DNA of 45,911 nucleotides from a virus. Shown here piece after piece: positions 4,396-45,760 of this stretch (positions are counted from its first letter, which is position 1; each line of letters starts with the position of its first letter). Under the pieces are notes generated by a model that saw nothing but the letters and a program-made list of their open reading frames with translations, had not been told where the DNA came from and made no database searches. The position numbers and the translations under genes were made by a program. The DNA is taken from positions 1 through 45,911 of the IMG/VR virus record IMGVR_UViG_3300031226_000004. One strand, written 5' to 3'.

Positions 4396-4469
<74 letters not shown>

Positions 4470-22175: not shown

Positions 22176-22520
22176 ATGGTATGTGTGTGTGGCTGCCTTC
22201 GCAGCTACACACATGCAAACCCATGCATGAGTGGATCACTGGTAGTGATCCACATATCGCGTACACGTACGCGTGCGTACACACGCACGCGCATACACAT
22301 ACATGCGCACGCTCACGCGTGCGCGCATGGTGTACATACATGCGCGCGGCGCGCGCACACACATGCACACGCCCCCCCTACGGGGGGCGTGTGTGTATGT
22401 ACTACCAGTAGTAGTAGTTATCTATTGCGTGCGCGCGTGGGCGCGCACATATACGCGTGCGCGTAGCGCGCATGCAGGTACCCGCGCTACGCGCGAGCGC
22501 ACGCATGGCGTGCATGCGTG
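22176..22520. repeat. Alternating purine-pyrimidine tract with palindromes
   Basis: About 345 bases dominated by CA/TG and CG/GC dinucleotide steps (GTGTGTG, CACACA, GCGCGC, ACGTACGCGTGCG), interrupted by perfect hairpins: GTGGATCACT-GGT-AGTGATCCAC at 22231-22253 and CACACGCCCCCC../..GGGGGGCGTGTG at 22366-22393. Runs of this kind favour left-handed Z-DNA and cruciforms. All frames give low-complexity Cys/His/Thr/Arg strings, so it is not coding. Confidence 0.7.
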
Positions 22521-22641: not shown

Positions 22642-23286
22642 ACCTGCGCTGTTCAAACTTCTCAAAGAATCTTGTTGGGAGGGTATTGACACGCTCTTCG
22701 CCCCAGTGCAGAGTCGACCTCGTTCCACCGCACCACAGCCAGCCGCACCGCCCGAGTCACTCGCCCGCAGCACAAGGGGCTTGAGAGACCGGGATCAGGA
22801 GCGGCGGGGGTTGGAGGCTCAGTCCTCACCCCCGCAGAGGGCATACGGCGTGAGGCGGAGTGAGCGGGAGGTAGGGCCTGCGGGTACCGCCGAACGGATC
22901 GTGGGACGGATCTTGATAGCTGAAGAGCGCGACCATCACCGGCCCCCCGAGAGGGGGGCGTGGACGGGTGACGACTGCCGACATGGCCTTGTGGGTGCTT
23001 CAACAGACCTTGGGGTGAGCGGCAGGGTGAACCGACGGATGCACGCAAGTGCACGGGTGATGGGCTACAGCGCCTCAGGGGACGTCGCGAGACGGACCGT
23101 GAGACACATCGAAACTTCTTACATTCCTGCGCTCATCTCTCCGATGGGGCGCAGGGCACGGCTCTCACGCCAGTACGTGCCCCTCTCCGGGCCGTACGCA
23201 CCACGTGTGGGGGTTGCGTACCCGAAGACGCTGAGAGCCGCTTAGGCGGACGCTGAGAGCTTTTGGTACGCGTTCCGTGCTGTGGG
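22642..23286. other. Non-coding leader region of the early arm
   Basis: About 640 bases without a credible gene; the frames that stay open have random-looking composition. It holds a CCCCCC-GAGA-GGGGGG hairpin near 22945, a bulged CGGGGGT..ACCCCCG hairpin near 22810-22840, and near 23235-23260 a direct repeat GACGCTGAGAGC that occurs twice around a GCCGC..GCGG inverted repeat. Early promoters probably lie here, but no clear -35/-10 pair could be assigned. Confidence 0.5.
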
Positions 23287-23302
23287 CAGGGTGGAGACCC
23301 TG
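23287..23302 (+). promoter_or_regulatory. Intergenic hairpin before the first early gene
   Basis: CAGGGT-GGAG-ACCCTG, 6 bp. One of a series of hairpins that precede the early genes, each 20-60 bases ahead of a Shine-Dalgarno hairpin. Confidence 0.5.
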
Positions 23303-23322
23303 TTCGCTGCATGGTTCGAACC

Positions 23323-23342
23323 GACGAACTGGAGAGATCGTC
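23323..23342 (+). promoter_or_regulatory. Shine-Dalgarno hairpin, copy 1
   Basis: GACGA / TCGTC stem with loop ACTGGAGAGA, directly followed by ATG. The Shine-Dalgarno GGAGA is in the loop. First of six copies that share the loop but differ in stem sequence. Confidence 0.7.
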
Positions 23343-23597
23343 ATGGGAAAGCACGCACGCCAGTACCTGTTCACACAGGCCCCCAGCGGACCCCGCCCCC
23401 TGCATGCAGGGAACGAGACGGGAACGCCCAAGGGGATCTTCCAACTGATATCCATTGACACCCTGGCCACGGGCGAGAGCCCGGGGCGCATCACGGTGTT
23501 GAAGATCAAGGGACTCAAGAAAATGTCCCACATCAGTCCGAAGGTGATCGACGCATACCTCACTACCGACCCGCGCGGTGAGCGCGTGTTCGGGTGA
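23343..23597 (+). CDS. Early protein, unknown function
   Basis: 84 aa from the ATG directly after Shine-Dalgarno hairpin 1. Basic N-terminus (MGKHARQYLF), then ..GIFQLISIDTLATGESPGRITVLKIKGLKK.. suggesting a small beta barrel. No Cys and no recognised motif. First gene of the early arm, so a host-takeover role is plausible. Confidence 0.6.
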   Translation: MGKHARQYLFTQAPSGPRPLHAGNETGTPKGIFQLISIDTLATGESPGRITVLKIKGLKKMSHISPKVIDAYLTTDPRGERVFG

Positions 23598-23616
23598 ACC
23601 CTCATTGCATGGTGAG

Positions 23617-23635
23617 CGGCCATCTCGCATGGCCG
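23617..23635 (+). promoter_or_regulatory. Intergenic hairpin
   Basis: CGGCCAT / ATGGCCG, 7 bp with loop CTCGC, in the gap before the gene at 23680. Confidence 0.45.
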
Positions 23636-23660
23636 TTGACCGGAGCAACAGGGCTCCAAT

Positions 23661-23679
23661 GACGTCTGGAGAGAGCGTC
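23661..23679 (+). promoter_or_regulatory. Shine-Dalgarno hairpin, copy 2
   Basis: GACGT / GCGTC stem (one T-G wobble) with loop CTGGAGAGA; T23660 can also pair with the A of the ATG. Confidence 0.65.
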
Positions 23680-24063
23680 ATGAAGCTGATCATCGAAGCA
23701 ACAGGTGAAGAGATCCTGTTGGGGCACCACACTGTCCAGGCCGTTGCGGGCCCCTACCGGGGCACGTGGTGGCGTATCGACGACGTGGTGATGGGTGACG
23801 CGGGTTACCGCGTCAACGCATCGCGTAAGCACCCCATCGGGCGTCACCGCATCATCGTCCCGCCGCACGTCTTCGGTCTGATCATCGAAGAGGCTCAGCG
23901 GCTGGTACGACGCGTGCTCACCTGGCTCCGGGGATGCCTGTCCGAGCTGAACACGGGCCTGATCATGGGTGCTATCGCCCTGATCCCGCTTGCGTTCTTC
24001 GAACAGGCTCACGGAGCGGAAACCGTGGCTCCGCTCATCGAGTGGATTCGAGAGATGCGGTGA
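23680..24063 (+). CDS. Early protein with one membrane segment
   Basis: 127 aa from the ATG after Shine-Dalgarno hairpin 2. The first 85 residues form a soluble region (..GPYRGTWWRIDDVVMGD..), followed by a basic helix and a hydrophobic segment around residues 95-112 (LNTGLIMGAIALIPLAFF). Likely anchored in the membrane with the N-terminal domain inside. No known family. Its TGA overlaps the GTG of the next gene. Confidence 0.55.
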   Translation: MKLIIEATGEEILLGHHTVQAVAGPYRGTWWRIDDVVMGDAGYRVNASRKHPIGRHRIIVPPHVFGLIIEEAQRLVRRVLTWLRGCLSELNTGLIMGAIALIPLAFFEQAHGAETVAPLIEWIREMR

Positions 24064-24248
24064 ACGGGTGGCAGACGGCCTTGTGGGCCGTCACCTCCGG
24101 TCTCATCGTCCCCGGCGCCATCGTCCTTCGGGGGCAGTACGAGAGTGCCAACAGGGACTCTCGCGCCCGTGCCGAACTGGCGCGCCTGTACCCGGACCTG
24201 TCCTATGAGGACGCCGTAATGGCGTACTCGCGGGACGTACGCAAGTGA
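24060..24248 (+). CDS. Small membrane-anchored early protein
   Basis: 62 aa, GTG start overlapping the previous stop (GTGA). Residues 4-24 are hydrophobic (..TALWAVTSGLIVPGAIVL..) and the rest is a charged helical tail (..RARAELARLYPDLSYEDAVM..). Co-translated with the preceding membrane protein. Confidence 0.5.
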   Translation: MNGWQTALWAVTSGLIVPGAIVLRGQYESANRDSRARAELARLYPDLSYEDAVMAYSRDVRK

Positions 24249-24265
24249 TCTGTGTTCGCTGGGAG

Positions 24266-24285
24266 CGCTCCTCTTCGGAGGAGCG
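24266..24285 (+). promoter_or_regulatory. Intergenic hairpin with TTCG tetraloop
   Basis: CGCTCCTC-TTCG-GAGGAGCG, 8-bp perfect stem with the very stable UUCG tetraloop. No T-run follows, which suggests an RNA stability or processing element more than a terminator. Confidence 0.55.
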
Positions 24286-24310
24286 TTGCCGGGGGCAACA
24301 CAGCCTCACC

Positions 24311-24329
24311 GATCATGGGAGAGATGATC
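24311..24329 (+). promoter_or_regulatory. Shine-Dalgarno hairpin, copy 3
   Basis: GATCA / TGATC stem with loop TGGGAGAGA; three bases (ACT) separate the stem from the ATG at 24333. Confidence 0.65.
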
Positions 24330-24332
24330 ACT

Positions 24333-24548
24333 ATGGCTTCAACCGTGTACGCACCCCACGACAACCACGGCACCATCGTGGGCGTCGAGATGGCTACACG
24401 TGACGCGGACTCGCTCTTGGGCGAGTTCTACCGCACGGGTGTGGACGTCGTGACGTACGACTTCCTGGCTCGCTCCGGCGAACCGATGGACGTGTGGGCG
24501 CAGCGTGACCACCAGGGCAACGTGAGGTTGGTTGTCGAGACTGTCTGA
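24333..24548 (+). CDS. Early protein, unknown function
   Basis: 71 aa (MASTVYAPHDNHGTIVGVEM..). Compact and neutral, with ..VVTYDFLARSGEPMDVWAQRD.. suggesting a small alpha/beta fold. Start chosen because it lies after Shine-Dalgarno hairpin 3. No recognised motif. Confidence 0.55.
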   Translation: MASTVYAPHDNHGTIVGVEMATRDADSLLGEFYRTGVDVVTYDFLARSGEPMDVWAQRDHQGNVRLVVETV

Positions 24549-24567
24549 TCCGGCGCAGTGCGCAGAG

Positions 24568-24587
24568 CGCACCCCTTCGGGGGTGCG
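24568..24587 (+). promoter_or_regulatory. Intergenic hairpin with TTCG tetraloop
   Basis: CGCACCCC-TTCG-GGGGTGCG, 8 bp, the same architecture as at 24266 with an unrelated stem sequence. Confidence 0.55.
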
Positions 24588-24619
24588 TTGTGCGGAGCTG
24601 TCCGGCTCCACCACGTCAA

Positions 24620-24638
24620 GATCTCTGGAGAGAAGATC
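24620..24638 (+). promoter_or_regulatory. Shine-Dalgarno hairpin, copy 4
   Basis: GATCT / AGATC stem with loop CTGGAGAGA, directly followed by the ATG at 24639. Confidence 0.7.
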
Positions 24639-25046
24639 ATGAACGTTGCATCTGCGGTCGAACTCATCAACAACTCGCTTGTGTACAAGCCGGGTTGGAC
24701 GTTCACTGCGACGGACCACACCAACCGCTTCGAGGACACGATCGTGGTGCGCGTCGACTATCCGGCGCTCAACAGCAACCGTGACCAGGCAGCGGACGGG
24801 TACCAACAGGAGATCCAGACCTACGCGTCGTTCCCGTTGGTCGTGCGGGACTGCACCGACGAAGACTTGTTCTTCCAGGTGCTGACCGCAATCGGCAAGA
24901 TCGAGCTGCACGAAGCGCGTGAGTTCCTGCGTCTCAAGCCCACCATGTGGGCGCCGTTCCACCCGCACAACGTGGACGGCATGAAGCGCTGGAGTGTTCG
25001 CACCGGAGACCGCATGGTCGACGACTTGCAGTTCGGCATTGCCTGA
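24639..25046 (+). CDS. Early protein, unknown function
   Basis: 135 aa. Acidic and globular, with ..GWTFTATDHTNRFEDTIVVRVDYPALNSN.. at residues 19-47, which looks like a beta sheet, then helices (..LFFQVLTAIGKIELHEAREFLR..). Proteins with this layout are widespread in actinobacteriophages without known function. The stop overlaps the next ATG. Confidence 0.6.
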   Translation: MNVASAVELINNSLVYKPGWTFTATDHTNRFEDTIVVRVDYPALNSNRDQAADGYQQEIQTYASFPLVVRDCTDEDLFFQVLTAIGKIELHEAREFLRLKPTMWAPFHPHNVDGMKRWSVRTGDRMVDDLQFGIA

Positions 25047-25225
25047 TGTGGCTCATCGAGTACAGCTCCCTCTACGAGTGGGAGGGGACCTTCCCCACCC
25101 CTCGTGAGGGGTACTCGCACCACTCAGAGCGCGTTTCCTCCGAGGAAGCCGTCAATCGGTTGCGTCACCTCATGGGGCGCAGTGGGCGGTACGGCATGCA
25201 CCACGTGACCGTGCGCCCCGCCTAG
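25046..25225 (+). CDS. Small early protein, unknown function
   Basis: 59 aa, ATG overlapping the previous stop (TGATG). Aromatic N-terminus (MWLIEYSSLYEWEG) and a His-rich end (..GMHHVTVRPA). No motif recognised; coupled to the gene before. Confidence 0.5.
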   Translation: MWLIEYSSLYEWEGTFPTPREGYSHHSERVSSEEAVNRLRHLMGRSGRYGMHHVTVRPA

Positions 25226-25247
25226 GAACCTGCCCCACAGCGTCGTG

Positions 25248-25267
25248 CACGGCCCTCAGTGGCCGTG
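25248..25267 (+). promoter_or_regulatory. Intergenic hairpin
   Basis: CACGGCC-CTCAGT-GGCCGTG, 7 bp plus a wobble, before the gene at 25318. Confidence 0.45.
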
Positions 25268-25298
25268 TGCGGCCCTGTCCGGAGGTTCCGGACTCTGT

Positions 25299-25317
25299 GG
25301 TCACTGGAGAGATGATC
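25299..25317 (+). promoter_or_regulatory. Shine-Dalgarno hairpin, copy 5
   Basis: GGTCA / TGATC stem (one G-T wobble) with loop CTGGAGAGA and ATG immediately after. Confidence 0.65.
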
Positions 25318-25578
25318 ATGCCTGAGAACGACGTACAAGAGGTTCGCTCCCTGTCCGTCATCGCGGACGAGATCACTCGGGACTGGAAGAAACCGTACTT
25401 CGGTGCGGTGCCCTACCTGGACGCCATGCATACGCTCAATCGCATGGGGGACAGCTATTGGGCCGACAGTGCCGAGAGCATCGTGCGGTACTTCCTGGCC
25501 AACGCGGGCACGTGGCGCGGCGAGACCGCGCGACGCGTCAAGGCGGAACTCAACGCGATGGTCAAGGGCGCTTATTGA
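25318..25578 (+). CDS. Early protein, unknown function
   Basis: 86 aa, mostly helical (..SVIADEITRDWKKPY.., ..YLDAMHTLNRMGDSY.., ..ESIVRYFLANAGTWRGETARRVKAEL..). The repeated helices and aromatic positions suggest a small helical bundle. The type is common among small early actinophage proteins but has no assigned role. Confidence 0.6.
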   Translation: MPENDVQEVRSLSVIADEITRDWKKPYFGAVPYLDAMHTLNRMGDSYWADSAESIVRYFLANAGTWRGETARRVKAELNAMVKGAY

Positions 25579-25584
25579 AGAGCT

Positions 25585-25617
25585 GATGTGGAGCCAGCAC
25601 TAGCCGTGCTCCACATC
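25585..25617 (+). promoter_or_regulatory. Intergenic hairpin
   Basis: GATGTGGAGC / GCTCCACATC, 10 bp perfect, 13-base loop, directly after the stop at 25578. Confidence 0.5.
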
Positions 25618-25643
25618 TTCGCAGGTCAAGCCTAGGAGAAGGC

Positions 25644-25853
25644 ATGTCCAGAAAAGTAGTCGAGACCCTCGTATGTGATCGGTGCGGTTTTGAATACCCC
25701 ACCGTGACCGGTGAGGGTGACACGACTCAAGATCTTGCCTACATGTTCATGCGCAATGGAGGCGGAAGCCGCCATAGCGACATGGCTCAAGATCTTTGCG
25801 TGAACTGCACCCAGTCTTTCAAGGCTTGGTGGCGAAACGGCAAAACGAACTGA
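25644..25853 (+). CDS. Small zinc-ribbon-like early protein
   Basis: 69 aa with a TAGGAGAAGG Shine-Dalgarno but no Shine-Dalgarno hairpin, unlike its neighbours. CDRC at 11-14 and CVNC at 52-55 form a classic two-knuckle zinc site, ending in an aromatic basic helix (..FKAWWRNGKTN). Likely nucleic-acid or protein binding. Confidence 0.6.
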   Translation: MSRKVVETLVCDRCGFEYPTVTGEGDTTQDLAYMFMRNGGGSRHSDMAQDLCVNCTQSFKAWWRNGKTN

Positions 25854-25868
25854 CCACCCCTCAACGTG

Positions 25869-25899
25869 CGGCACGGGTCGATGCGATGATCCCGTGCCG
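25869..25899 (+). promoter_or_regulatory. Intergenic hairpin
   Basis: CGGCACGGG / CCCGTGCCG, 9 bp with a 13-base loop, before the gene at 25946. Confidence 0.5.
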
Positions 25900-25926
25900 T
25901 GCCTTGTCCGATGGTCGGGCACATGT

Positions 25927-25945
25927 GATGACTGGAGAGATCATC
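25927..25945 (+). promoter_or_regulatory. Shine-Dalgarno hairpin, copy 6
   Basis: GATGA / TCATC stem with loop CTGGAGAGA, ATG immediately after. Differs from copy 1 by a compensated C-G to T-A change in the middle of the stem. Confidence 0.7.
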
Positions 25946-26155
25946 ATGGCAATGAGTCGTAAGCACTACCGCGAGACAGCGGAGATCGTTAAGGCTGTAG
26001 TGGATGACACCCCAGCCCATAGCGATCTTGAGGGGTTCATCGCTACCGGTCGCATGCAGGCCGCGCGTTCCATTGCGCGTGGCCTGGCCAGCATGTTCAA
26101 GGAAGACAACCCCTGCTTCGACCGGGAAAAGTTCCTGGACGCGTGCGGCCTGTGA
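25946..26155 (+). CDS. Small helical early protein
   Basis: 69 aa (MAMSRKHYRETAEIVKAVVD..). The C-terminus carries A-x2-F-x4-N-P-x-F-D-x3-F-x4-G, also found at the end of the protein at 26423-26878. The K-H-Y-R-E-T-A-E-I start is common in small actinophage proteins of unknown function. Its stop overlaps the next GTG. Confidence 0.65.
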   Translation: MAMSRKHYRETAEIVKAVVDDTPAHSDLEGFIATGRMQAARSIARGLASMFKEDNPCFDREKFLDACGL

Positions 26156-26304
26156 AGCGCGCCGCCCTACGAGGCCTGATCTTCGGTCTCATCGCGTCAT
26201 TCGCCGTACTGTCCATCCGCCCAGCGTTCGCGCTGGGTGCGTGGCTGGCGAGCGTGGTGCATCCCGAGCACAACCCGTCCGAGATTTACTTGGACGTGCA
26301 CTAG
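26152..26304 (+). CDS. Small membrane or exported peptide
   Basis: 50 aa, GTG overlapping the previous stop (GTGA). Basic start (MKRAALR) followed by a hydrophobic stretch (GLIFGLIASFAVLSI) and ..PAFALGAWL.., resembling a signal peptide or a single membrane span, then a polar end. Function unknown. Confidence 0.45.
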   Translation: MKRAALRGLIFGLIASFAVLSIRPAFALGAWLASVVHPEHNPSEIYLDVH

Positions 26305-26307
26305 ACC

Positions 26308-26347
26308 GGCACCCCCCTCCGTCGCTGCCCGTCGGGAGGGGGGTGCC
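26308..26347 (+). promoter_or_regulatory. Large intergenic hairpin
   Basis: GGCACCCCCCTCC / GGAGGGGGGTGCC, 13-bp perfect stem, 14-base loop, 4 bases after the stop at 26304. No T-run. Confidence 0.55.
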
Positions 26348-26357
26348 TCCCTTCATG

Positions 26358-26392
26358 GGGGCAACTGCCTTCCATCCATGGGCAGTTGCCCC
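26358..26392 (+). terminator. Terminator-like hairpin before the 26423 gene
   Basis: GGGGCAACTGCC / GGCAGTTGCCCC, 12 bp, followed by TTTGTT. It sits between two co-directional genes, so it probably works as a partial terminator or attenuator. Confidence 0.55.
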
Positions 26393-26422
26393 TTTGTTGG
26401 GACCACAAAAGGAGAGAAAATC

Positions 26423-26878
26423 ATGGCTTTGTTCAAGGACAAAGAGAGTGAGTTCGTGACGCGTGATGAGGCGCAGAGCGCCCTGTCCGCGTACGTCACG
26501 AAGGAAGAGGCGACCGCTGTCGTCAACCAGCTCAACGGGATGGACACTCGTGTCCGTGCGTTGGAGACGCTGGCGGAGCAGATCAAGGGCAACAACGCTC
26601 ACCGCGTGCAGGTAGCGGAGCAGCCCAGCCGGTCCGGCGACTACACCATCACGCTGCCCACCCGCACCCCGGGTGCGACGCTCGGTGTCGACTACGGCGC
26701 CATCGCGTTCGGTCTCTCGGAGATCAAGCACAACGTCACCCGCGCCCTCTCGGTTCAGGGCGGCGGTGCTGATCTCGCGCAGCAGTACGAGGGCACCGTG
26801 CAGTACTTCGCCGACGTGTTCAGCAAGTCGGACCCGTCGTTCGACGAGGCACTGTTCAAGCGCCAGTCGGGTGTCTGA
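26423..26878 (+). CDS. Early protein with coiled-coil N-terminus
   Basis: 151 aa, ATG with GGAGAG, but the flanking A-rich bases cannot form the Shine-Dalgarno hairpin seen in its neighbours. Residues 10-60 are heptad-like helix (..RDEAQSALSAYVTKEEATAVVNQLNGMDTR..). The end (..FADVFSKSDPSFDEALF..) shares its motif with the protein at 25946. Probably oligomeric; role unknown. Confidence 0.65.
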   Translation: MALFKDKESEFVTRDEAQSALSAYVTKEEATAVVNQLNGMDTRVRALETLAEQIKGNNAHRVQVAEQPSRSGDYTITLPTRTPGATLGVDYGAIAFGLSEIKHNVTRALSVQGGGADLAQQYEGTVQYFADVFSKSDPSFDEALFKRQSGV

Positions 26879-26984
26879 CGTTCAGCAAGTCGTCGTAAAC
26901 GGTCGCCTGTATGCCAACCACCCCACATGGGGCTGGTTGGTCATGGGCAGCTGGGGCTGGAAGCCAGTAGTCCAGCCCTTCTAG
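26871..26984 (+). CDS. Trp-rich micro-protein
   Basis: 37 aa, GTG start inside the end of the previous gene. N-terminus MSDVQQVVVNG, then ..HPTWGWLVMGSWGWKP.. with four tryptophans in 14 residues. Likely real because of coupling, but very short. Confidence 0.4.
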   Translation: MSDVQQVVVNGRLYANHPTWGWLVMGSWGWKPVVQPF

Positions 26985-26989
26985 TACGT

Positions 26990-27029
26990 CCCGCAGGGGG
27001 TAGCTACTACCTTGGGTGCCCCCTGCGGG
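26990..27029 (+). terminator. Terminator-like hairpin
   Basis: CCCGCAGGGGG / CCCCCTGCGGG, 11 bp, 18-base loop, 5 bases after the stop at 26984. GC-rich without a T-run; it separates the early cassette genes from the HNH gene. Confidence 0.5.
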
Positions 27030-30680: not shown

Positions 30681-31215
30681 CCCCGAGAACGCGGATCTGA
30701 CCGCCGAGGAAGTGGCTGAGAAGGCGATCGAGGCGTACGAAGCCGAGCAGGCCAAGACGCACAACTTGATCGTGCTCGGTCACTTCCGAATCAGTGAGAC
30801 CGAGTCCTACGTGGCCGCAGTCGGCCCCCTGAGCACCCGCGCTACGGCGCGGGCTCGGGAGGTCGGCGAGCGGTTCGCCTGGGACTACAAGACCCGCAGG
30901 GGCACCGGACAGTTCGTGCTGGTGCCCCTGATCCGTAACCCGAATGAGGCGTGGGACGAAGCGCGTGTGGCCCAACTCGTCGAGTACGAGGGGCATATGG
31001 GTTCTGTGACGCCGGGCATCGAGCCCGGCTACGAGCCCATGCGGTTCGACATTCCCGACGAGGTACGGAAGCGGATCGCCGCCTCCGTCGAAGAGGTGGT
31101 GGAGAACACCGCCGTGCCCACCTGTACTTGCGGGATGGATACCACCTTGATCGAGGCGCAGAGCAAGTACGCCCTGTGTCCTCGCCATCCGAAAGGACGA
31201 GAAGGTGATAGTTGA
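30634..31215 (+). CDS. Early protein with C-terminal Cys motif
   Basis: 193 aa, GTG start, overlapping the HTH gene by 47 bases. The helical N-terminus (..AEEVAEKAIEAYEAEQAK..) leads to a beta-rich core (..LIVLGHFRISETESYVAAVGPL.. ..GQFVLVPLIRN..). It ends with CTCG..C in a small zinc-like tail. It resembles phage proteins of unknown role that accompany ParB-like genes. Confidence 0.55.
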   Translation: MPAQRVLNAVASVLGDPENADLTAEEVAEKAIEAYEAEQAKTHNLIVLGHFRISETESYVAAVGPLSTRATARAREVGERFAWDYKTRRGTGQFVLVPLIRNPNEAWDEARVAQLVEYEGHMGSVTPGIEPGYEPMRFDIPDEVRKRIAASVEEVVENTAVPTCTCGMDTTLIEAQSKYALCPRHPKGREGDS

Positions 31216-31972
31216 TCTTGGAAAGTCGTGGCTGAAGGACGCCAAGTGCTCCGGCATGGGTAGCGAGAAGTTCTTCACCGATCACAGCGTGCACTCTCTT
31301 CAGAAGCCCACGAAGACGCTGCAAGCGGCGTGGGACGAGATGAAGATGGTGTGCGGCGACTGCCCTGTGCGGCGCCAGTGCGCCCGTGACTTCCTCGGTG
31401 AGACCGAGGGCATCTACGGCGGCATGGACCCCGCGCAGCGGTACGCCGTACGGAAGGTCCATGACGTTCACGTACGAGCCCTGGACGGCCCCCTCAAGGA
31501 AGAGTATGCAGCCCTGGCGTGGCGCCTCAGCAAGGAGTGCGGCTACCCGGGCGTCTCTGTGGCTCGCATCATGGGCCTTGGCCTGACCGCAACCCAGTAC
31601 CTGGTCCAGTGGCACGAGGATCACCTCCGCGAGGAAGGTGAAGCCAAGGCCGCGCAGACACTGACTGTCGAGCTGGTGGAGACACGCCTTCCGGTGGACT
31701 TCCCGATCCGCTCAGTCGGTGACCGGGATGCCTGGGTGCGCTACGGCCGTCGTGTCGTAGCCGGGTACTACCTTGGCCAGACCGAGGACGACGCGTGGTT
31801 CTTCATGAAGGTGCCGCTCAGCAGAGAAGACTCCAGCGCCTGGTTCAAGGCGCAGGACGTGCAGATGCGACGCTCAATGCCACGTCGCGTCATGAAGCGC
31901 GTAGGGAATGAGAGTCGCATCTATGGCACGGCGCTCAGCAAGTACAGCGGGGACGTCAAGCAGGCTGGGTGA
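31205..31972 (+). CDS. WhiB-like iron-sulphur regulator with long C-terminal extension
   Basis: 255 aa, GTG start. Four cysteines (C15, then CGDCPVRRQC at 50-59) and GIYGG at 69-73 match the WhiB family pattern for a 4Fe-4S cluster and the turn that contacts sigma factors. Typical WhiB proteins are about 80-140 aa; here an extra 150 residues follow, with a helix-turn-helix-like ..GVSVARIMGLGLTATQYLVQW... WhiB proteins are specific to Actinobacteria and their phages. Likely redirects host RNA polymerase. Confidence 0.78.
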   Translation: MIVDLGKSWLKDAKCSGMGSEKFFTDHSVHSLQKPTKTLQAAWDEMKMVCGDCPVRRQCARDFLGETEGIYGGMDPAQRYAVRKVHDVHVRALDGPLKEEYAALAWRLSKECGYPGVSVARIMGLGLTATQYLVQWHEDHLREEGEAKAAQTLTVELVETRLPVDFPIRSVGDRDAWVRYGRRVVAGYYLGQTEDDAWFFMKVPLSREDSSAWFKAQDVQMRRSMPRRVMKRVGNESRIYGTALSKYSGDVKQAG

Positions 31973-33913: not shown

Positions 33914-34681
33914 TTGACCGAGGAGAACACTGCTGGACCGGACGCCGAGGGCGTCGACTGGACTGGCGCCGCAGGGCCTGACTGGCAGGCAGCGACCGCC
34001 GACGTGGCGTCGGAGGTTGGCCCCTATGCCGCTGGCGCTACCCCCGGCTACCCCGAGTACAGCGACAACCCCCACAATCACCGCTTCACCCTGACCTTCG
34101 CCCCGGACAAGCCCCCCTTCATCGTGGTGCGTGGGCAGACGGCGGCCGAGTGCACGGCCGCGCTCAATGAACTCGAAGCGGGCGGCGTCTACGCCAACCT
34201 CGCAGCCGCCTGGGCCTCCCTGAAGGTCCAGGGAACCATCGGTGCGGGACTGGGCCCCGTGTCCCCTGTGCCCCCGCAGGGGCCTCCTCCAGGCCCTCCG
34301 CAGGCGCCGCAGGGCTACGCTCCCCAGGGCCCTGCAACCCCTCCCCCCTTCGGGGCCAACGTGTCCGTACCGCAGGCGCCCGGCTACCAGGGGCCGCCTC
34401 AGCAGCAGTGGCAGCAGGCCGCGCCGCAGAGTGGTGGGTGGAATGGTGGAGGTGGTGCACCGCAGGGGGGTAACCCAAACGAGAAGCCGCGCCCGGCTGG
34501 GTGGGCCATGGTGGACGTGCCCTTCAGCGACAAGGACCGCTTCAAGGCCTTGCGAGTGAAGGGCACGGAGACCGAGGCCTACCTGCGCGGGAAGATTCAG
34601 TGGGGTGGGAAGGGCGTCTACTGGCTGGAGCCCAGCATCGCTGGGTGGCTGGCGCAGCAGGGGTTCCCTGTCACCCAGTGA
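33914..34681 (+). CDS. Pro/Gln-rich protein of the replication module
   Basis: 255 aa from a TTG with AAGGAGAG. The N-terminal 110 residues are globular (..HRFTLTFAPDKPPFIVVRGQTAAECTAALNELEAGG..), a Pro/Gln/Gly linker spans about 115-190, and a small C-terminal domain ends ..KIQWGGKGVYWLEPSIAGWL... It precedes SLOG, ATPase and primase genes. Layout and place suggest a single-strand-binding or replication accessory protein, but no OB-fold signature is certain. Confidence 0.5.
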   Translation: MTEENTAGPDAEGVDWTGAAGPDWQAATADVASEVGPYAAGATPGYPEYSDNPHNHRFTLTFAPDKPPFIVVRGQTAAECTAALNELEAGGVYANLAAAWASLKVQGTIGAGLGPVSPVPPQGPPPGPPQAPQGYAPQGPATPPPFGANVSVPQAPGYQGPPQQQWQQAAPQSGGWNGGGGAPQGGNPNEKPRPAGWAMVDVPFSDKDRFKALRVKGTETEAYLRGKIQWGGKGVYWLEPSIAGWLAQQGFPVTQ

Positions 34682-35046
34682 GGGTGATCGTCACCGGCTC
34701 CCGTAAGTGGATGGACGGCAAGGCTGTACATCACGCCCTGTCCAACCTCTATCTGGAGCATGGTGCGTTCCACCTGATGCACGGCGCCTGCGCCACGGGC
34801 GCCGACGCTGCGGCCCAGGCGTGGTGGGAGGCCACTCACGCCATCACGGGATGCACAGAGGAGCGCTTCCCGGCCAACTGGGAGCGCGGCAAGCAGGCGG
34901 GACCTGAGCGCAACCGGCGCATGGTGGAGGCGGGCGCTGATCTGGTGCTCGCCTTCCCACTCCCCGACGGCTCGGGGACCCAGCACACGATGCAACTGGC
35001 CCGCGATGCGGGCATTGAGATTGTGGAGCCTTGCAAGGAGGGGTAG
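34678..35046 (+). CDS. SLOG-domain protein (YspA-like)
   Basis: 122 aa, GTG overlapping the previous stop (GTGA). Rossmann-like start RVIVTGSRKW, then HGACATGADAAAQAW, RFPANWERGKQAGPERNRRMV and LVLAFPLPDGSGT, the standard SLOG/YspA-like set of nucleotide-binding motifs. SLOG proteins bind nucleotide-derived signals or cleave nucleotide derivatives. Common in actinobacteriophages; substrate unknown. Confidence 0.75.
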   Translation: MRVIVTGSRKWMDGKAVHHALSNLYLEHGAFHLMHGACATGADAAAQAWWEATHAITGCTEERFPANWERGKQAGPERNRRMVEAGADLVLAFPLPDGSGTQHTMQLARDAGIEIVEPCKEG

Positions 35047-45307: not shown

Positions 45308-45760
45308 ATGAGGCGAACCGCAGGAGAGCGATTCTGGTCCAAGGTGGACCGGGGTGGAGAGTGTTGGCTGTGGCTTGGGTACGGCCTGGCCAGCGGATAC
45401 GGAATGTTCTGGGACGGTGAGCGCAAGATCGGCGCTCACGTCTACTCGTTCAAGCTGCACGGGGGCGTGCTTACGCCCCGCAGGCCGTACGTCCTGCACT
45501 CGTGCGACAACCCTCCATGCGTGAATCCGGCGCATCTGCGCGCGGGTTCGCAGAAGGAGAACATCGCTGATGCAGTAGGGCGGAAGCGCATGACAGGCAA
45601 CTACCACCCGCGCACTGAGCGCGCGAAACTCAGCGAGGCGGACGTACGAGACATCCGCGAGTCGCCGGAGCGAGGCTCCGATCTCGCGGAGAGGTACAGC
45701 GTCACCCGCATCACGATCTACAACATCCGCAACTACAAGACCTGGAAGCATCTGCCCTAG
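45308..45760 (+). CDS. Homing-type HNH endonuclease inserted between virion genes
   Basis: 150 aa. VLHSCDNPPCVNPAHLRAGS with N-I-A-D-A-V-G-R-K-R is the HNH_3 signature, and the C-terminus (..LSEADVRDIRESP.. ..RYSVTRITIYNIRNYKTW) is the DNA-binding helix-turn-helix of phage homing enzymes. It is antisense to the late operon, starts 19 bases from the fibre gene start and its TAG overlaps the TAG of the adaptor copy. Both flanking gene ends have unusual AT-rich codons. A TATAGT lies just upstream of the ATG. Confidence 0.85.
   Translation: MRRTAGERFWSKVDRGGECWLWLGYGLASGYGMFWDGERKIGAHVYSFKLHGGVLTPRRPYVLHSCDNPPCVNPAHLRAGSQKENIADAVGRKRMTGNYHPRTERAKLSEADVRDIRESPERGSDLAERYSVTRITIYNIRNYKTWKHLP

Follow-up and report, generated by a model that had tools for sequence, protein, structure and literature searches.

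Why should a run of neighbouring small genes in one phage genome each begin with a Shine-Dalgarno (SD) sequence enclosed by its own, differently spelled inverted repeat? The case arises in IMG/VR virus record IMGVR_UViG_3300031226_000004, whose positions 1 to 45,911 make up the stretch of DNA analysed here (45,911 nucleotides (nt); hereafter the window). The virus is kin to Streptomyces Beephvirinae phages, its terminase being about 50% identical to theirs and up to 90% identical to those of uncultured contigs. A preliminary description made from the letters alone had placed a hairpin with the SD in its loop at the starts of six genes, taken to be early, between 23323 and 25945, and all six are present when checked base by base: each combines a stem of 5 base pairs (bp) with a loop of 9-10 nt containing GGAGAG, and the ATG follows flush in five and 3 nt on in the sixth (24333). 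Comparison of sequences indicates that these hairpins are a real, selected RNA structure at translation starts in a group of Streptomyces phages.

Compensated stems around the Shine-Dalgarno sequence

The isolated hairpins have modest folding energies (-3.8 to -6.2 kcal/mol; z-scores -0.6 to -3.5), so that energy alone is no proof and the evidence lies in joint occurrence and covariation. Six copies of TGGAGAGA are found in the window against 1.55 expected, a number reached by none of 100 shuffles; start-by-start comparison of SD-containing starts with shuffles by RNAfold was too noisy, the open reading frames (ORFs) being unfiltered. Pairing was counted in a close set (the window with L007, the L013 contig G002, the L093 contig G005, L094 and L099) that holds 67 ORF starts with GGAGRG at SD distance, and the 5' sides were dealt anew among the same starts in 3,001 shuffles. 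A stem of at least 5 bp surrounds the SD at 29 of these 67 starts, compared with a shuffle mean of 3.3 and a maximum of 10; over all relatives, 59 of 205 starts have one where about 11.8 are expected.

Orthologous genes carry different stems that remain paired. The gene that starts at 23680 has GACGT/GCGTC in the window, TGACAG/CTGTCA in L007 (start at 4466), GATCAG/CTGATC in L013 (8690) and GTCAG/CTGAC in L093 (638), and GATCT/AGATC of the gene at 24639 corresponds to GACTG/CAGTC at L007 3676. Similar sets are formed by L007 4994 (GACGG/CCGTT), L093 1101 (GATCT/AGATC) and L094 524 (GAGTG/CACTC), by L007 3996 (GTCG/CGAC), L013 9499 (GGTGA/TCACC) and L093 139 (GTCGT/ACGAC), and by L007 2050 and L013 10331, a further family with differing paired stems; the L013 orthologue of the gene at 25318 keeps both arms unchanged around another loop. 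Stem letters thus vary by gene and by phage while pairing is kept, a pattern which indicates that the shape itself is selected. In a gap-free alignment of nine hairpins 100% of cells are paired and covariation reaches 0.600 against 0.234±0.060, but the members were picked as hairpins, so that the weight rests on the shuffle and orthologue tests.

The starts at 25644 and 26423 do lack the hairpin, as had been noted earlier. It is missing from every member of the 26423 and 27674 gene families, and its presence therefore follows the gene.

A larger covarying leader RNA

The preliminary description had missed a larger structure: comparative analysis indicates an intergenic RNA of about 90 nt whose helices covary and whose 3' domain is the SD hairpin. 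In the window, the hairpin genes after the first are preceded by an intergenic stretch of 82-92 nt, and the folding of these leaders is far more favourable than that of shuffles (z -2.4 to -4.7). In an alignment of nine leaders (A4) the counted structure comprises helices P1, P2-P3, B and the SD hairpin C, with 28 pairs in four helices and 95.9% of cells paired against 71.0±2.0 shuffled, a percentage favoured by the structure having been named after viewing the same sequences. The compensatory counts are less affected by this: 19 pairs show double-sided change, and there are 60 compensatory cells compared with 20.9±3.2 shuffled. Covariation is 0.631, against 0.188±0.026 in shuffles and at most 0.114 when partners are slid by 1-3 columns. 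Both the orthologues with their different compensated stems and these counts support the earlier claim of selection on RNA structure, the relatives showing compensatory changes in excess of shuffled and slid controls.

P1 begins one base past the upstream stop codon in the three aligned window leaders and at or over the stop in the other two, in which the interrupted hairpin overlaps, respectively, the TAG of the upstream frame (25225..25289) and a TGA (25851..25917; whole-leader model match of 36 bits at 25887-25948). The loop of hairpin B consists of exactly the 3' strand of P1 and has no linker, so the two helices are expected to exclude each other.

Two models, of the SD hairpin (R1) and of the whole leader (R2), were used to follow these elements. 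R2 finds additional leaders in relatives and gives weak matches (E 0.003-0.9) just upstream of right-arm gene starts in phages Manuel, FlowerPower and Dennebes; at these places, SDs without structure (ACAAGGGAGAGAG) are preceded by folds resembling P1-P3. By its sequence matches, the leader's upstream portion, apparently shared by isolated Beephvirinae phages, thus seems older or more widespread than the SD hairpin. R1 has no convincing match in eight Beephvirinae-type isolates or in phiC31, R4, TG1 and VWB; its matches in FlowerPower and Dennebes are inverted repeats without an SD. There, CATGATCA-N9-TGATCATG lies near the right genome end (L203 FlowerPower 45523-45547; L204 Dennebes 45568-45592) and has no central SD.

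Megablast of the region against isolated phages gave no match, and exact-pattern scans of viral contigs gave few, those looked at belonging to the same phage group. Four Streptomyces assemblies hold relatives at 58-64%, one of them within a 7.9-Mb scaffold. R2 has no match in 199 Streptomyces genomes, a result that shows little, the model being too specific and run with no positive control. Rfam returns nothing in 22800-27000 at E<=1 except a chance miRNA match and, at gathering threshold, only tRNAs in eight relatives.

In more distant relatives the SD hairpin closes a series of hairpins; the leaders of these relatives aligned poorly with MAFFT and were left out of the counts. In the leaders of L101-L138 and L174 (for example L125 1369 and L117 7029), the serial hairpins before the SD hairpin include some with recurring loop motifs (TTACGGATG or TTGCAG; TGCCA or TGATC), and these leaders are probably another unlisted RNA family. 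The leader of 26423 (26302-26425), which lacks an SD hairpin, has two very strong long hairpins (minimum free energy -72 kcal/mol, z -6.2).

Table. Leader elements and hairpin-bearing genes of the window, in order of position; z, folding z-score of the leader
Feature	Position	Strand	Details
SD hairpin C1, GACGA-ACTGGAGAGA-TCGTC	23323..23342	+	ATG at 23343; R1 match 23.4 bits
Gene 1, SD hairpin	23343..23597	+	84 aa (amino acids), no known family
P1-P2-P3 interrupted hairpin, 23680 leader	23599..23653	+	1 nt past TGA 23595-23597; A4 covariation; z -4.3
Hairpin B, GGAG-CAACAGGG-CTCC	23642..23657	+	loop = P1 3' strand; A4 helix 3
SD hairpin C2, GACGT-CTGGAGAGA-GCGTC	23661..23679	+	one G.T; ATG at 23680
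Gene 2, SD hairpin	23680..24063	+	127 aa, no known family
P1-P2-P3 hairpin, 24333 leader	24250..24303	+	1 nt past TGA 24246-24248; A4; z -4.7
Hairpin B, GGGG-CAACACAG-CCTC	24292..24307	+	A4
SD hairpin C3, GATCA-TGGGAGAGA-TGATC	24311..24329	+	then ACT, ATG at 24333
Gene 3, SD hairpin	24333..24548	+	71 aa, no known family
P1-P2-P3 hairpin, 24639 leader	24550..24605	+	1 nt past TGA 24546-24548; A4; z -3.9
Hairpin B, GGAG-CTGTCCGG-CTCC	24594..24609	+	A4
SD hairpin C4, GATCT-CTGGAGAGA-AGATC	24620..24638	+	ATG at 24639
Gene 4, SD hairpin	24639..25046	+	135 aa, phrog_1540 (function unknown)
P1-P2-P3-like hairpin, 25318 leader	25225..25289	+	outer stem GGAACCT/AGGTTCC; z -4.7; R2 28.5 bits
Competing hairpin B, GTCCGGA-GGT-TCCGGAC	25277..25293	+	bases in common with P1; sequence
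SD hairpin C5, GGTCA-CTGGAGAGA-TGATC	25299..25317	+	one G.T; ATG at 25318
Gene 5, SD hairpin	25318..25578	+	86 aa, phrog_13953 (function unknown)
P1-P2-P3-like hairpin, 25946 leader	25851..25917	+	outer stem TGACCA/TGGTC..; z -2.4
Competing hairpin B, GTCCGA-TGG-TCGGGC	25906..25920	+	sequence
SD hairpin C6, GATGA-CTGGAGAGA-TCATC	25927..25945	+	ATG at 25946
Gene 6, SD hairpin	25946..26155	+	69 aa; weak match to phrog_2922, nothing else

The product of gene 5 is about 50-70% identical to Gordonia and Mycobacterium phage proteins and belongs to a widely exchanged small gene. Elsewhere in the rightward array a WhiB-like regulator and a YspA/SLOG-family protein are encoded (31205-31972 and 34501-35046), and just upstream of the array the region 22180-22520, with alternating purine-pyrimidine sequence (CACACGCGTGCGC...) and several inverted repeats, resembles a structured or origin-like region.

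Proposed gating of initiation and its alternatives

The hairpins had been thought to present the start site to the ribosome, and they are indeed tied to translation starts with the SD in the loop; the stem, however, often pairs the AUG. When positions -30 to +3 are folded, at least the A of AUG is paired in 15 of the 27 close hairpins and 32 of the 38 distant ones, and the whole AUG in 23 of the 38 distant ones (for example CATGATC..GATCATG and ATGGCCAA..TTGGCCAT). Unpaired probability is 0.83 (close) and 0.91 (far) for the SD, and shuffling of the 5' side lowers it to 0.56 and 0.63; for the AUG it is 0.61 and 0.31, compared with 0.87 and 0.86 after shuffling. These numbers describe rather than test, the sets having been preselected as hairpins. 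Among 27 flush hairpins, 19 place a T across from the A of the AUG, and the stem of C2 can be extended over the A and U of its AUG. Presentation is consequently only half of the picture, and the folding predictions suggest a gate with the SD out and the AUG in rather than a plain presenter.

The reading that we favour, and to which we would give an even chance, is that of a cis-acting translation-initiation hairpin acting as such a gate. The hairpin would fix the start region in a local fold, keeping the SD from strong neighbouring structures, among them the CTCC of hairpin B, which could capture GGAG in most leaders of the aligned type; the loop would offer the SD to the anti-SD of the 30S subunit, and the weak stem of 5-8 bp would retain the AUG until opened by the docked 30S or by a factor. 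The gate would thereby set the strength or timing of these genes apart from that of unstructured neighbours on the same message. Between 23000 and 26500 neither a sigma-70-like promoter nor a U-tract terminator was found, which fits post-transcriptional control of genes that probably have one message in common.

Besides the preselection just mentioned, several points weigh against the gate. The effect of a stem placed between SD and AUG could be plain inhibition; insulation of the SD from CTCC fails where the B stems are GGGG/CCCC or GGGG/CCTC; and isolated relatives (Manuel, FlowerPower and others) do without an SD hairpin.

An unlikely but tenable alternative is a translational operator, in which a phage or host protein, or an RNA, binds the hairpins, locks SD and AUG together and shuts off the genes jointly, as RegA, CsrA and the RNA-phage coat proteins do for their targets. 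Dispersed, shared copies on a defined subset of genes would suit it, an SD in the loop with an AUG in the stem would be an ideal block, and CsrA prefers GGA in a hairpin loop (PMC7652899). Most of the loop described earlier as fixed is the standard SD hexamer, since GGAGAG also serves as SD at the unstructured starts 26423, 27674, 29479, 30405, 32850 and 39516, and the remainder varies in relatives: loops measure 7-11 nt, and the letters flanking the SD may be CT, AT, AA, CA, TA or TG. A loop made of the ordinary phage SD and varying flanks gives no evidence for a protein that reads it, and the 16S anti-SD is a sufficient ligand; with arms that also vary freely, little is left for a sequence-specific reader. 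Extended pairing to the 16S tail beyond GGAG was considered and dropped. No CsrA (PF02599) was found in the window or eight relatives, the E. coli, B. subtilis and T. maritima controls being positive; searches for RegA and RegB, made without a positive control, gave no match, and no candidate RNA-binding protein was recognised. The earlier suggestion that a phage protein binds the loop thus finds no sign in its favour.

It is doubtful, too, that the intergenic RNA is a phage-wide two-state leader switch exerting gene-to-gene control by folding and initiation gating with no regulatory protein. Because P1 starts at the preceding stop codon, a terminating ribosome would mask it; with P1 opened, B would form from the 3' strand of P1 and the SD-out, AUG-in hairpin would be licensed.

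Improbable as well is an RNA processing and stability cassette in which P1-P2-P3 is an RNase III-type intergenic site like those between T7 early genes; the cut would release the 3' strand of P1, which would fold into B at the 5' end so created, with the SD hairpin as the remainder of a protected 5' leader. The long interrupted hairpins that immediately follow the upstream stop, the exclusion expected between P1 and B, and the lack of U-tract terminators and promoters are all compatible with this, but it explains P1-P3 and B, not the covariation of the SD hairpin or its inclusion of the AUG.

Little probability attaches to inverted repeats acting at the DNA level, whether as transcription-factor sites or as quasi-palindromes left by templated mutation without selection. 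The arms are often GATC-rich palindromes (TGATCA), and the SD-less repeats of FlowerPower and Dennebes fit such an origin, but the repeats here are centred on the SDs of a conserved gene subset, and P1, P2 and P3 covary as well. A fixed DNA operator motif was dropped, the arms differing from gene to gene within one phage. That a common GATC-ATG context and a common SD coincide, or that shared descent without selection suffices, is hardly credible: TC before ATG is common in these phages and several arms read TGATC, but 29 stems stand against the 3.3 (at most 10) obtained by dealing the same arms among the same starts, and GACTG/CAGTC, GAGTG/CACTC, GTCGT/ACGAC and GGTGA/TCACC are unrelated to each other yet paired.

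Precedents and significance

RNA-phage coat operators are start-site hairpins able to block initiation, but each is one site with a fixed loop and the SD in the stem, whereas the hairpins described here occupy many sites with the SD in the loop and the AUG in the stem. By place and distribution, the closest precedent is the start-associated sequence (SAS) of cluster K mycobacteriophages, also known in an extended form (ESAS) (Pope 2011, PMC3203893; PMC11373665). It too is a repeated SD-containing element that lies a few bases from the gene start, in a subset of small non-structural genes preceded by long gaps; its G/C flanks (GGG...CCC) would allow a 3-bp stem enclosing AGGAG, an inverted repeat lies further upstream of about half of the copies, and a role in translation initiation has been proposed. 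At the six window starts the SD-containing element likewise lies 0 or 3 nt from the ATG. SAS is, however, a single fixed 13-bp sequence (GGGATAGGAGCCC), which leaves its pairing undemonstrated, and its authors question whether mRNA hairpins form from the ESAS repeats, later read as promoters (PMC3203893; PMC11373665). The present hairpins, unlike SAS, have arms that vary and covary, include the AUG and follow an upstream element that covaries as RNA. A search of the window for SAS showed no enrichment: allowing up to 3 mismatches, it gave 20 matches where chance predicts 18.2. None of them falls at the six starts, the one at 23651-23663, with 3 mismatches, being on the opposite strand.

In CsrA/RsmE targets, too, a weak hairpin at the ribosome-binding site carries GGA in its loop, but the phage loops have 7-11 nt instead of 6 and no ACA/GU loop context (PMC7652899). 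A CsrA site was accordingly rejected, there being no A(R)GGA hexaloop with an AC/GU closing pair and no CsrA gene in the phages. T4 RegB sites and RegA operators similarly provide phage-wide control at GGAG SDs or early-gene AUGs, yet have no defined structure, and structure protects from RegB (PMC3014915). With CsrA, RegA and RegB the resemblance is in the target only.

The comparative evidence is strong that phages select an SD-in-loop, AUG-in-stem structure at many genes at once; its sole published parallel, SAS, has been unexplained since 2011. The varied natural stems on orthologous genes are ready-made compensatory mutants for the study of 30S entry into structured starts. The wider leader is an RNA family absent from Rfam; Streptomyces genomes contain relatives, and phages grown on laboratory Streptomyces lividans appear to have its upstream part.

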